NCBI RefSeq assembly: GCF_014698145.1
Contig: NZ_JACJSM010000006.1
Span: 186,001-250,000 of the forward strand
Reading direction: 5' to 3'
DNA from: Oscillatoria sp. FACHB-1406
Lineage (GTDB): Bacteria > Cyanobacteriota > Cyanobacteriia > Cyanobacteriales > Spirulinaceae
Length of the DNA stretch: 64,000 bases
Shown one piece after another: positions 17,499 to 47,627 of the stretch (the first letter of the stretch is position 1; each line of letters opens with the position of its first letter). The position numbers and the translations under genes were made by a program. The notes below the pieces were generated by a model, which was not told where the DNA came from, searched no databases, and saw only the letters and a program-made list of their open reading frames with translations.

Positions 17499-17677
17499 TT
17501 CGCGTCAGCAGAAGAGTCTTCTACTGCGTTGTCATCCTCGCGATCGCTGCCGGACGGACGGTTATCATAGCGTTTGTTCCGGAAGGTACGACCGCGATTT
17601 AGCGATTTCCGGAACCGGCGCGCGTAAGCTTTATTGCGCAGCGCTTTTTCTTTCTTTGGATTGCGACGTTTCGACAT
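17495..17677 (-). CDS. Small basic cyanobacterial protein (60 aa)
   Basis: I choose ATG at 17677 because GAGG sits 5-8 bases upstream. The frame stays open further upstream, but that part reads through an IS200/IS605-type end. The product begins MSKRRNPKKEKALRNKAYAR and is Arg/Lys-rich for 45 residues, then ends in an acidic Ser/Asp tail. This resembles a small conserved cyanobacterial family of unknown function; nucleic-acid binding is likely from the charge alone. The stop overlaps the end of the convergent HTH-GrpE gene by 4 bases. Confidence 0.78.
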   Translation of the reverse strand: MSKRRNPKKEKALRNKAYARRFRKSLNRGRTFRNKRYDNRPSGSDREDDNAVEDSSADAN

Positions 17678-17778
17678 GGTTTCCTCATAGACACAGATTA
17701 AAAGGCCCCTGGTGCGTTGTAATTCACTCCCAAGCATCCCAGAGGCATAGCGGGCTTTTTCTAGAGTGTGCCGCGAGA

Positions 17779-17813
17779 TTGACACTCCACTGCTTAAAGG
17801 CGAGTGGATTCTT
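17779..17813 (-). mobile_element. IS200/IS605-type right-end hairpin
   Basis: On the plus strand the stretch reads TTGACACTCCACTGC, a loop, then GCGAGTGGATTCTT. On the minus strand this is AAGAATCC, a hairpin, then GTGTCAA, the usual 3' end of cyanobacterial tnpB-type IS200/IS605 elements. The same flanking words occur at 47500-47534. No transposase or tnpB frame survives next to it. Confidence 0.75.
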
Positions 17814-18165
17814 GAGCTAATCACTGCGCTTTCTGGTTGCCCTTACTTACGTCTTACATGATTATGTCTGAACCGAACTTACTAGAATATCACTTGCTAT
17901 CTAGGTGTCCTTTTTAGGGTTCACTCTCCAAGCGTTTTCCCGTTTCCGGGAGATTCGGGTATGCCCTACCCTATCTGTCTTGCGACAAGTCTTTTACTTG
18001 TTTTCATTCGCCGTTGTTTATCGGCTACTGCGCTATGATTTACGAGGTTTTCGCTACCCTCCTTTTTGTCTCTTGTGCAGACTTTCGAGTTCTAGGGTTC
18101 AACTCAGTATGAGCCATTCACTACCGCCCACTCAGGGAATTCAAACCGGTTCCATTATAACATAA
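17779..18165 (-). ncRNA. Candidate structured RNA of an IS200/IS605-derived element (omega/HEARO-like)
   Basis: No reading frame is open across this stretch, yet short perfect hairpins follow one another. Plus-strand positions: 17856-17867, 17882-17904, 17939-17950, 17957-17971, 17976-17987, 17985-18001, 18010-18025, 18044-18061 and 18087-18105. On the minus strand two loops are GNRA tetraloops (CCCG-GAAA-CGGG and TGTC-GCAA-GACA), which favours a minus-strand RNA. A TATAAT box lies at 18154-18159 in that orientation, and the IS-type end hairpin is at the predicted 3' end. This gives an RNA of about 370 bases. Guide (omega) RNAs of TnpB or IscB elements are the closest known class; identity is unproven. 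Confidence 0.45.
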
Positions 18166-18182
18166 AGCCGTCCTACGCTTTG

Positions 18183-18469
18183 TTAAAGGACGTAGCTCTA
18201 AACCCAAATTTTCGGTAAAACGAAATTCAAAGCGCGAGGCAATTTGAATTTCTTGTTAATTGTGACCCACTATCGAGGGGGACTGCTGCGCGCTGGGAGG
18301 CGGGCTAGCGTCATCGCGACCTCGAGGGGGAGCAAACCCTAGGGAACCCGGAATTCGACACATCTAAAAACAATATCAACTTTTGTCTCTTTGTTGTCCC
18401 CCTTTTACTAAAGCGATCGCGTGTTTCAATCAGTCAGGGAGGCGAGGGGATACGATTATCGATCGAGCT
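18183..18469. other. Gene-free remainder upstream of the structured element
   Basis: No gene is visible. A CGTCC...GGACG inverted repeat at about 18168-18192 may be the left end of the element that follows. Two copies of CGAGGGGGA lie about 60 bases apart near 18275 and 18333, around a GC-rich, partly self-complementary stretch. The rest looks like ordinary spacer before the 3' end of the antiporter gene. Confidence 0.35.
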
Positions 18470-20632
18470 TTAGATCGGCTCGGATTGCGGCGGGTTGGGA
18501 ACGGAAGCCTCAGTTAAAACGGATTTGAGGTGCGATCGCGCGGTTAAGTGGCAGCGCGCAATTAGCAGCGAGGAGTGACAGCGCACGGCGAGTTCGTCGG
18601 TGTAACTGCCCAGGGTATGCCGTTCGATTCCCCATTCGCGCGTCGTTCCCGCTAAGGTGAGATCGACGTTAGCTGAGGCTTGAATGACAGCTTCTAAAGG
18701 TTGACTATTTCCGACGGCGACGATTTCGAGACGCGATCGCGCAGCGGGGGGGAGTGAGTCGAGCAAACGTTGCAATTCGTGGGTTAATGCTTGCGATGGT
18801 TCGGCTTCGGGTTCCGGGCGCAAAATCGTCAGCTGTCGGGAGTCGTCGTTCACGAGTAGGCGCAAGGCTAACTCCAGGGCTAAATCGTCGTGAACGTTGG
18901 CAGCGTAAGGAACCAGGAGGGTATTGAGGCGAGTGCGCCCGCGATCGACGAATACCGCCACATCTACGGGCGCGCCGCGCAGAATCTGCCCGACTCTACC
19001 GCCTAAACGATTGCTGCTGAATGTCGGGCGATGCCAACCGACGAGGATTAAGTCGGCGCGATCGAGGCGGGCGATTTGGATGGTTTCGCGCGCCACATCG
19101 TTTGTCGTGCGGATGATGGGTTGGATGAGCTTTTTGGCTTCCGTCAATTCGAGGCTGTTTATTAATCCCTCGAGGGTGGTGCGCCGTTCCTGCATTAATC
19201 GTTCTGCTTCGACCGGGGTACTCTCAAAGGCGTAATCTTCTTGCAGTTGGATCAAACTCAGGGGATGCACGACAGCAGGCGGTTGTCCTTGCCCTGCAAG
19301 CGAGATCGCTAATTGCAACAAACCGCGCTGCGTATCGGGATTTGCTACCGGAACCAGAATGCGATAATTGGGTGCGAGTTCCTGCGTTTCATCCTCCACC
19401 GTATCCAAACGAATCAGGCGTTTCGGGAATGTCCATTCCAACAGCGGCGAAGTCATGAACGTCGTTACTAAAGCCATAATCACCAACATCGCAAACAGTA
19501 ACGGCGAAATAACGCCCAGGCTCAACCCAATATTAAGAACGATTAACTCCGTTAGTCCGCGCGTATTCATCAGCCAGCCTAAAGCCGAAGCTTCTCGATT
19601 TTCAATCCCGCAAACCCTTGCAGCAATGTATGTTCCCGCGTATTTGCCAATGACGGCAACCCCTAAAATAGCTGCGCACAATCCCCAGAGTTCCGGGCGA
19701 TCTAACAGACCAATTTGCGTTCGCAAACCGCTATAAGCAAAAAATACGGGTAGCAAGAAAATTAAAACAAAATCTTCGGTTTTTTCGGCAATTTCTCTCG
19801 TTAATCCTGCATTTTTAGGCATAACTGCCCCTAACAGAAATGCTCCAAAAATTAAGTGAATTCCAATAAATTCTGTAATTAAGGCAGAAGCAACAACTGC
19901 CATATAAATTCCCGCAAGGGTCAATTGTGTCAAACGCCCTCTGCGGTTGTAATATTTTGCCAACCGTTTCAAGAATTTTCGTCCGATTGTTAACATCAAA
20001 GCGATGTAGATTATCGATTCGATAATCGTAGGTAAAGCACCCGTCATACTATTGGTTCGCGTTACCGCGATCGCGACGGCGAGCAAACACCACGCTGTCA
20101 CGTCATCCACCGCCGCACAAGTTAAGGCTAACGTACCCAATCGCGTATTTTGTAGGTTATTTTCAGTAATAATTCTGGCTAGAACTGGAAAGGCAGTAAT
20201 CGACATTGCTGCGCCTAAAAACATCGCAAAAGCAGTAAAAGAGACGCTGTTATTCGAGACTTGCGGGTACAGGAGCAACGCCAAAATACTTCCCAATGAA
20301 AAAGGAACCAGAATGCTAACGTGGGAAGTTAAGATTGCAATGTCTAAGTTCCCCTTTAGATATTTTGGGTTTAATTCTAAGCCGATCAAAAACATGAAAA
20401 AGATCAGCCCGACATCTGAAATAACCTCTAAAAAAGGGATTGTTTCTGGTGGAAATAAGGCTCCCGACCAGTGGGGAGCAATTAACCCCAATAGCGACGG
20501 GCCTAACATAATTCCGGCAACAATTTCACCAATAACTTGAGGCTGTTTTATCCAGCGAAAAGCCGAACCGACAAGACGCGAAATCCCGATGACAATAAGA
20601 ACTTGAGCGAGAACGAGGACCGGTAAAGGCAT
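18470..20632 (-). CDS. Cation:proton antiporter (CPA2 family) with C-terminal universal-stress-type domains
   Basis: 720 residues. The first ~400 form about 12 helices of a CPA2 Na+/H+ exchanger, with QVIGEIVAGIMLGPSLLG near the start and the paired acidic residues TCAAVDDVTAWC used in ion and proton binding. GWLMNTRGLTELIVLNIG is the conserved Arg/Glu helix. Residues ~420-700 are cytoplasmic and resemble one or two UspA-like domains (ILVPVANPDTQRGLLQLAI, ADLILVGWHRPTF). The product should exchange Na+ or K+ for H+ at the inner membrane, with the soluble part regulating it. The transcript starts about 350 bases from lpxB on the other strand. Confidence 0.93.
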   Translation of the reverse strand: MPLPVLVLAQVLIVIGISRLVGSAFRWIKQPQVIGEIVAGIMLGPSLLGLIAPHWSGALFPPETIPFLEVISDVGLIFFMFLIGLELNPKYLKGNLDIAILTSHVSILVPFSLGSILALLLYPQVSNNSVSFTAFAMFLGAAMSITAFPVLARIITENNLQNTRLGTLALTCAAVDDVTAWCLLAVAIAVTRTNSMTGALPTIIESIIYIALMLTIGRKFLKRLAKYYNRRGRLTQLTLAGIYMAVVASALITEFIGIHLIFGAFLLGAVMPKNAGLTREIAEKTEDFVLIFLLPVFFAYSGLRTQIGLLDRPELWGLCAAILGVAVIGKYAGTYIAARVCGIENREASALGWLMNTRGLTELIVLNIGLSLGVISPLLFAMLVIMALVTTFMTSPLLEWTFPKRLIRLDTVEDETQELAPNYRILVPVANPDTQRGLLQLAISLAGQGQPPAVVHPLSLIQLQEDYAFESTPVEAERLMQERRTTLEGLINSLELTEAKKLIQPIIRTTNDVARETIQIARLDRADLILVGWHRPTFSSNRLGGRVGQILRGAPVDVAVFVDRGRTRLNTLLVPYAANVHDDLALELALRLLVNDDSRQLTILRPEPEAEPSQALTHELQRLLDSLPPAARSRLEIVAVGNSQPLEAVIQASANVDLTLAGTTREWGIERHTLGSYTDELAVRCHSSLLIARCHLTARSHLKSVLTEASVPNPPQSEPI

Positions 20633-47495: not shown

Positions 47496-47540
47496 GAGTT
47501 GACACTTCCCGTCCTAAAGAAGCGGGGATTCTTAAAAATC
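47496..47540. mobile_element. IS200/IS605-type end hairpin, second copy
   Basis: TTGACACTTCCCGTC, a loop of about eight bases, then GCGGGGATTCTT form the same TTGACACT...GGATTCTT frame as at 17779-17813. It is the right end of a tnpB-type element whose coding part is gone. An AAAAATT array lies just before it. Confidence 0.7.
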
Positions 47541-47627
47541 TCGACCCTAATGGAGCTTAAATGATTTCAGCAGTTTGGGATAGTAGGCGAATTTACGCCC
47601 TTGTGTACTGGCTCGCTTTCCTGTAAA

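Follow-up and report, generated by a model that had tools for sequence, protein, structure and literature searches.

It is proposed that the ORF-less element described here, located in a window of 64,000 nucleotides (the whole stretch of DNA that was analysed), is a non-autonomous IS200/IS605 element of the IS608-like type whose sole product is an omega-RNA-like guide, and that it is moved by TnpA and served by TnpB in trans; on balance we judge this reading to be the probable one. The element combines IS608-type ends and target, a precise empty site for one relative, a promoter-like box, a covarying RNA and homology to tnpB 3' ends in two modules. The window element and its relatives are called family B, and families A and C are further gene-free families. 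Two tools recur below: alignment A1, which comprises 26 family B 3' domains including the window copy, with a structure obtained by RNAalifold; and R1, a covariance model built from 23 family A 3' domains, with no tnpB and no window copy among them. The features are as follows.

17779-18214, minus strand: the whole ORF-less IS200/IS605-type element, 436 bp, with near full-length relatives of 79-87% identity
18215-18218, minus strand: target tetranucleotide TTAC, the left cleavage site CL (IS608 rule, CL=TTAC)
18167-18214, minus strand: left end with guide-like AGAG (18199-18196) and an imperfect palindrome, limits set by eye
18154-18162, minus strand: extended -10 promoter box TGTTATAAT, containing TATAAT (18159-18154)
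17995-18147, minus strand: 5' domain of the predicted RNA, conserved in sequence and tentative in structure, with a predicted start near 18147
17779-17981, minus strand: omega-RNA-like 3' domain, matched by R1
17977-17986, minus strand: hairpin GUC-GCAA-GAC, A1 helix 1, with 3 of 3 pairs doubly changed and 84.7% of cells paired
17957-17971, minus strand: hairpin GGGUA-GGGCA-UACCC, part of A1 helix 2, common to tnpB 3' ends
17882-17904, minus strand: CUAGA...UCUAG hairpin, A1 helix 6, invariant
17815-17868, minus strand: family-specific extra stem GACAUAAUC...GAUUAGCU, A1 helices 9-11, with 6 of 11 pairs doubly changed
17779-17814, minus strand: right end with guide GAAT (17811-17808), hairpin and cleavage site TCAA (17782-17779); GR=GAAT and CR=TCAA as in IS608
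17763-17778, minus strand: candidate 16-nt guide flank, if the RNA reads through, by analogy with ISDra2

The initial annotation had placed a gene-free, structured minus-strand element at 17779-18165. The terminus at 17779 and the AAGAATCC...GTGTCAA hairpin near it were confirmed, whereas the left limit had to be moved: the refined element runs on the minus strand from 18214, right after TTAC, to 17779, ending in TCAA. In agreement with the gene-free reading of that annotation, neither the ORF list nor the six-frame translation revealed a minus-strand gene within the element. In the available portion of the source on IS608, the cleavage sites are CL TTAC and CR TCAA and the guides are GL AAAG and GR GAAT (PMC5934647); the window element has TTAC, TCAA and GAAT in the corresponding places and differs in its left guide, which is AGAG rather than AAAG. 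Within 18218-18186, stretches of 31 and 33 nt show 94% and 91% identity to the left ends of L002 and L003, tnpB elements that belong to the same genome, which comprises 5.47 Mb in 42 contigs. The element lies between a long minus-strand ORF at 18470-20632, a transporter as judged by eye, and the ORF of a small basic protein with its ATG at 17677. A decayed tnpB was considered and rejected, since six-frame translation yields no long minus-strand frame and eight near full-length relatives exist in six genomes; no TnpB match was found at the six of these relatives that have about 1.5 kb of sequence on each side.

Flanking sequences vary from copy to copy, and for one relative (L069, genome G282) a precise empty site was found: 7 of 12 Microcystis genomes align gaplessly with the joined flanks at 93-96% identity, while among the others G282 has the element and G256, G261 and G095 carry about 1.73 kb of inserted DNA a few bases from the site. 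The target base and the left guide change together across copies. Among 24 copies the fourth target base gives TTAC in 13, TTAT in ten and TTAA in one ambiguous copy (L074); the left guide is AAAA in all ten TTAT copies, and with TTAC it is AAAG in 11, AGAG in one (the window copy), AAGG in one and AAAA in none. These counts come from related copies and from a pattern that fixed TTA and left the fourth base and the guide free; L044 and L051, whose search pattern had fixed the fourth base to C or T, are omitted from them. Of 23 joined sites, 4 fall within a frame that stays open for at least 150 aa, and a few insertion sites may thus be in genes. As to the transposase, four PF01797 loci were found in the window's own genome, one strong (102.7 bits, profile positions 18-121) and three weak; the sole strong Y1 transposase is missing profile positions 1 to 17. 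Contigs C16, C6, C11 and C14 of the assembly each begin just before an IS605-type right end (L029, L031-L033), possibly as assembly breaks at repeated tnpB elements.

The TATAAT box that had been noted is present at 18159-18154 and belongs to an extended -10 box. Across the family, the TGNTANNNT box occurs within bases 31-130 in 24 of 26 elements, against 3.3 expected from shuffles; this set leaves out three repeats of one place and five elements of at least 470 bp. Elements in which no left end was recognised were also omitted (47 of 81), some of which have one that the pattern missed (e.g. L071-L073). The 5' domain that would follow the box covaries little, with double changes at 2 of 14 pairs. 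At four loci (L110-L113) a match to the window-type 5' domain precedes a 3' part of another kind, which is longer and yet recognised by R1; this combination hints that the 5' domain is a module.

Dense folding had been offered as a sign of an RNA, and taken alone it is not above chance: the minimum free energy of the minus strand is -96.6 kcal/mol (z -1.18), with 15 of 100 shuffles folding equally well or better, and the plus strand behaves alike (z -1.29, 10 of 100 shuffles as good). Folding energy was consequently rejected as evidence, being unusual on neither strand. Two GNRA hairpins are visible on the minus strand, GTC-GCAA-GAC (17986-17977) and, slightly 3' of it, CCCG-GAAA-CGGG. Compensatory base changes, named beforehand as a sign to look for in related genomes, were found. 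In A1, pairing holds in 97.0% of cells, where shuffles reach 82.6%, and double changes occur at 28 of 49 pairs, against 17.7 in shuffles, with none of 500 shuffles as high; controls with slid sequences pair at 30-46%. In alignment A4, made of 20 longer copies, the values are 96.8% against 83.5%, with double changes at 31 of 61 pairs. For both alignments the structure was predicted from the same sequences, which gives it an advantage over the slid controls; kinship among sequences can, moreover, lift them above shuffles without any structure. Family B loci without a recognised right end (18 of 50) were left out. The arms of the GGGUA-GGGCA-UACCC hairpin covary in relatives, for example as CUGUG/CACAG, CCGUA/UACGG and CCGCA/UGCGG; the CUAGA...UCUAG helix, being invariant, is neutral on its own pairing. 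Judged from these sequence comparisons, the element holds a conserved structured RNA.

IS605 ends suffice for mobility by TnpA, which counts for a rival explanation, namely that this is a plain miniature IS605 element (MITE) in which the DNA ends alone matter and the interior RNA is a leftover that guides nothing. Further gene-free families occur in the same genome. Family C has seven gene-free copies there (L178-L184, about 280-305 bp), the other six being 90-99% identical to L180; its similarity to the tnpB element L017 lies to either side of the L017 ORF, as expected of internal derivatives, and the family C copies that were read are preceded by TGAC. An internally deleted family B copy at the L069 junction (L194, G292:C322), unless it is an assembly error, points the same way. 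Family A (own copies L004 and L005; 382-450 bp in the copies measured) aligns to a tnpB element of the genome, L009, on both sides of the ORF, and has a non-coding stretch of about 220 nt where L009 has the ORF. Its 27-copy alignment pairs in 97.7% of cells, where shuffles reach 90.0%; double changes occur at 29 of 66 pairs, against 17.4 in shuffles, a value that no shuffle out of 500 attained. For the number of further pair types, 33 of 500 shuffles did attain the observed value. A Cyano-1 RNA match upstream of one family A copy (L055:1313-1381) scores 34.8, the gathering score being 41. The three families differ in their 5' parts, as independent deletion derivatives could. Against a leftover interior stand the covariation and the invariant motifs deep inside the element, kept in genomes of several families, and the promoter box retained in 24 of the 26 elements, and we regard the plain MITE as rather unlikely.

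The link to TnpB comes from R1. Of the 17 loci with PF07282 in the window's own genome it recognises 15, with scores from 116.5 to 23.1 bits (E 3e-29 to 5e-4), at the 3' end of the gene or just beyond it; L008 and L020 have no match, and four TnpB loci match weakly, at 23-29 bits. L020 (G000:C15:58820-62011) holds a 611-aa TnpB-like ORF near type V C2c8 (339.3 bits, cut-off 350), which adjoins roughly ten copies, counted by eye, of a CRISPR-like repeat. On the window element R1 matches 17981-17779 with 43.9 bits (E 1.2e-9 for 181 kb and 3.7e-8 for the genome), and match and element both end at the TCAA at 17779. Homology to tnpB 3' ends was found for two modules, not for the centre: the alignment consists of the hairpin module and the right end, between which 72 model positions and 139 nt are unaligned, so that homology of the centre rests on similarity by eye. 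The GGGUA-GGGCA-UACCC string is identical in the TnpB loci L009-L012, and the module is also part of the R1 alignment. Ten decoy loci (L143-L145, L186-L192) gave no R1 match up to E 1; L110-L113, which match R1 and have the window-type 5' match, are not decoys, and ten are left without them. R1 finds 35 places in the genome, 30 of which were examined as loci: TnpB lies directly 5' in ten, four are at contig starts and count neither way, and 16 have no TnpB match in their flanks, of which at most some 1.5 kb per side were covered. Another R1 match in the window, at 47499-47567 on the minus strand (25.4 bits), marks an isolated remnant of an IS605-type right end that lies between two ORFs. Across the order, R1 has matches at E 1e-6 in 120 of 147 genomes, under strict filtering and with no more than 22 scored candidates in each; the count includes unsorted tnpB 3' ends as well as gene-free copies.

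The initial annotation had read the locus as an orphan relative of omega RNAs. The kinship is upheld by A1, R1 and the locus survey, which support a structured RNA on the strand it gave, an IS200/IS605 right end and no nuclease in cis; the orphan status stands in that no TnpB is encoded in cis, and fails in that this is not a single relic: it is one of a mobile family spread over several cyanobacterial families. In the window element no tnpB gene lies in cis 5' of the RNA, and a survey of families A and B found TnpB inside the element at none of 85 loci. Some places occur twice in this survey, 67 of its loci have at least 1300 nt upstream, and L089 does not belong to it. At L061 and L128 a TnpB match lies outside the element, and at L089 TnpB is on the 3' side of a family B fragment. 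Two motifs of the extra stem are absent from all 17 TnpB loci of the window's own genome; as none of these tnpB genes (0 of 17) has the window-type extra stem, no cognate nuclease is assigned. This absence, together with the conserved 5' domain that is also found with another 3' part, would suit a different partner or a decoy role, in which the RNA might, for example, act as a competitor of the omega RNA that TnpB itself encodes or work with an inactive TnpB-like repressor. We consider that improbable, given that the 85 loci (some of them one place twice) have no TnpB gene inside the element and that the copies sit in different flanks, with flanking frames that vary by copy in the ORF list. 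All 30 checked genomes with family B matches also have PF07282 and PF01797 matches; as all 30 were carriers of family B, this co-occurrence is compatible with use in trans and is not evidence for it.

With the window element as query, 118 of 291 genomes of the order match at E <=1e-3, many of the matches listed covering ends only, and near full-length relatives occupy eight places in six other genomes (G211, G282 twice, G265 twice, G057, G034 and G140). The family A query matches 199 of the 291 genomes at E 1e-3, many of them partially. A motif pattern searched in named genomes retrieved 25 stretches, all with cyanobacterial titles, among Microcystis, Crocosphaera, Calothrix, Symploca, Moorena, Coleofasciculus, Chlorogloea and Xenococcaceae; going by these named relatives, the window's own genome is cyanobacterial as well. 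The window element has no match in phage and plasmid collections, and one exact pattern per family has none in viral contigs; family A matches four plasmid records, one spanning 75% of the query. A single full family B copy was found in the window's own genome, as would be expected of a host regulatory RNA domesticated at this locus, an explanation that we hold to be highly improbable in view of the relatives in different flanks and the empty site of L069.

Other identities were rejected. A kinship with HEARO and IscB had been suggested, and a search of the element against Rfam 15 did not bear it out, with no HEARO match and no family at its gathering score; up to E 10, over 17600-18450, the only match is a chance one to a plus-strand miRNA model, beginning within the left end and extending beyond it. 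HEARO is also absent from 15 loci (family A and copies of the window's own genome) in the Rfam search, and neither the window nor these loci have an Rfam intron match as would mark a group I intron or IStron. HEARO, group I and II introns and other Rfam families were thus set aside for want of a match at the element. A Microcystis MITE is, in the available part of its description, an ISL3-type element of 187 nt and unrelated (PMC11448079).

We propose that the guide element works as follows. A conserved non-coding RNA would be made between the promoter-bearing left end and the right end, the nuclease gene being absent; its 3' part would form an omega-RNA-type scaffold reaching to TCAA, and read-through would add the flank as guide. 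Movement of the element as single-stranded DNA would fall to TnpA, a Y1 transposase acting in trans, and TnpB of the same clade, also in trans, would probably take up the RNA and cut the resealed TTAC plus flank, after which repair would restore the element. The guide at 17778-17763 would match the element's own empty site, TTAC plus flank, where TTAC (18218-18215, minus strand) would be the TAM. The model is ISDra2, for which, in the available portion of the source, the TnpB-bound RNA derives from the tnpB 3' end and the right end, its last ~16 nt being the flank guide; cleavage of the resealed donor site, beside the target motif, is the role that its authors propose for TnpB (PMC8612924). 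Elsewhere in the window's genome, no site other than the element's own junction matches TTAC plus 14 nt with up to two mismatches; with three mismatches there are two, the same number as with a reversed-pattern control. We infer transcription, an acting TnpA and TnpB, binding by TnpB and cleavage; use of the RNA in trans by TnpB is plausible. In favour of the guide element we count the ends and target, the joint change of target base and left guide, the L069 empty site, the covariation, R1, the -10 box, the L009 flanks and ISDra2; against it we count the lack of a tnpB with the extra stem, the two-module R1 match, the L008 and L020 misses, the four weak R1 matches, the strong Y1 protein without its first 17 positions, the AGAG guide, the weak 5' covariation and the differing 5' parts.

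Omega RNAs as such are already known, and so are gene-free IS605 elements and orphan IscB guide RNAs. The window RNA shares with the TnpB omega RNA (reRNA) its 3' position, right-end hairpin, TCAA end and GGGTAGGGCATACCC hairpin module, as well as a target motif ahead of the flank; the differences are the missing cis-encoded tnpB, the promoter box and 5' domain that stand where the ORF would be, and the extra stem of the window family. IS200/IS605 MITEs and palindrome-associated elements are gene-free, have IS605 ends and presumably rely on TnpA in trans; the likeness lies in the missing gene and the ends, whereas the window interior has a conserved covarying RNA and a promoter box. HEARO, the orphan IscB omega RNA, is a guide-like RNA of an IS200/IS605 element without a protein gene; the window RNA differs in having no Rfam match and in scaffold modules akin to TnpB loci. 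No gene-free family with promoter box, 5' domain and omega-RNA-like 3' domain appeared in the titles and opening lines of abstracts, few of them from subscription journals, which is weak evidence of novelty. We tentatively suggest, as a possibility that we doubt more than we believe, an RNA-only class of transposon in which a conserved 5' RNA domain replaced the nuclease gene and a two-domain guide exploits the TnpA and TnpB of relatives; were this true, guide-RNA biology would gain, in the 5' domain, an RNA function of a new kind. Should the RNA act in trans, the transposon could persist on a guide RNA alone, parasitising the transposase and nuclease of its relatives; the role proposed for TnpB in keeping the transposon would become directly testable with protein and RNA apart, nature would provide split guide RNAs that carry an additional domain, and a class of repeats common in cyanobacterial genomes may be explained.
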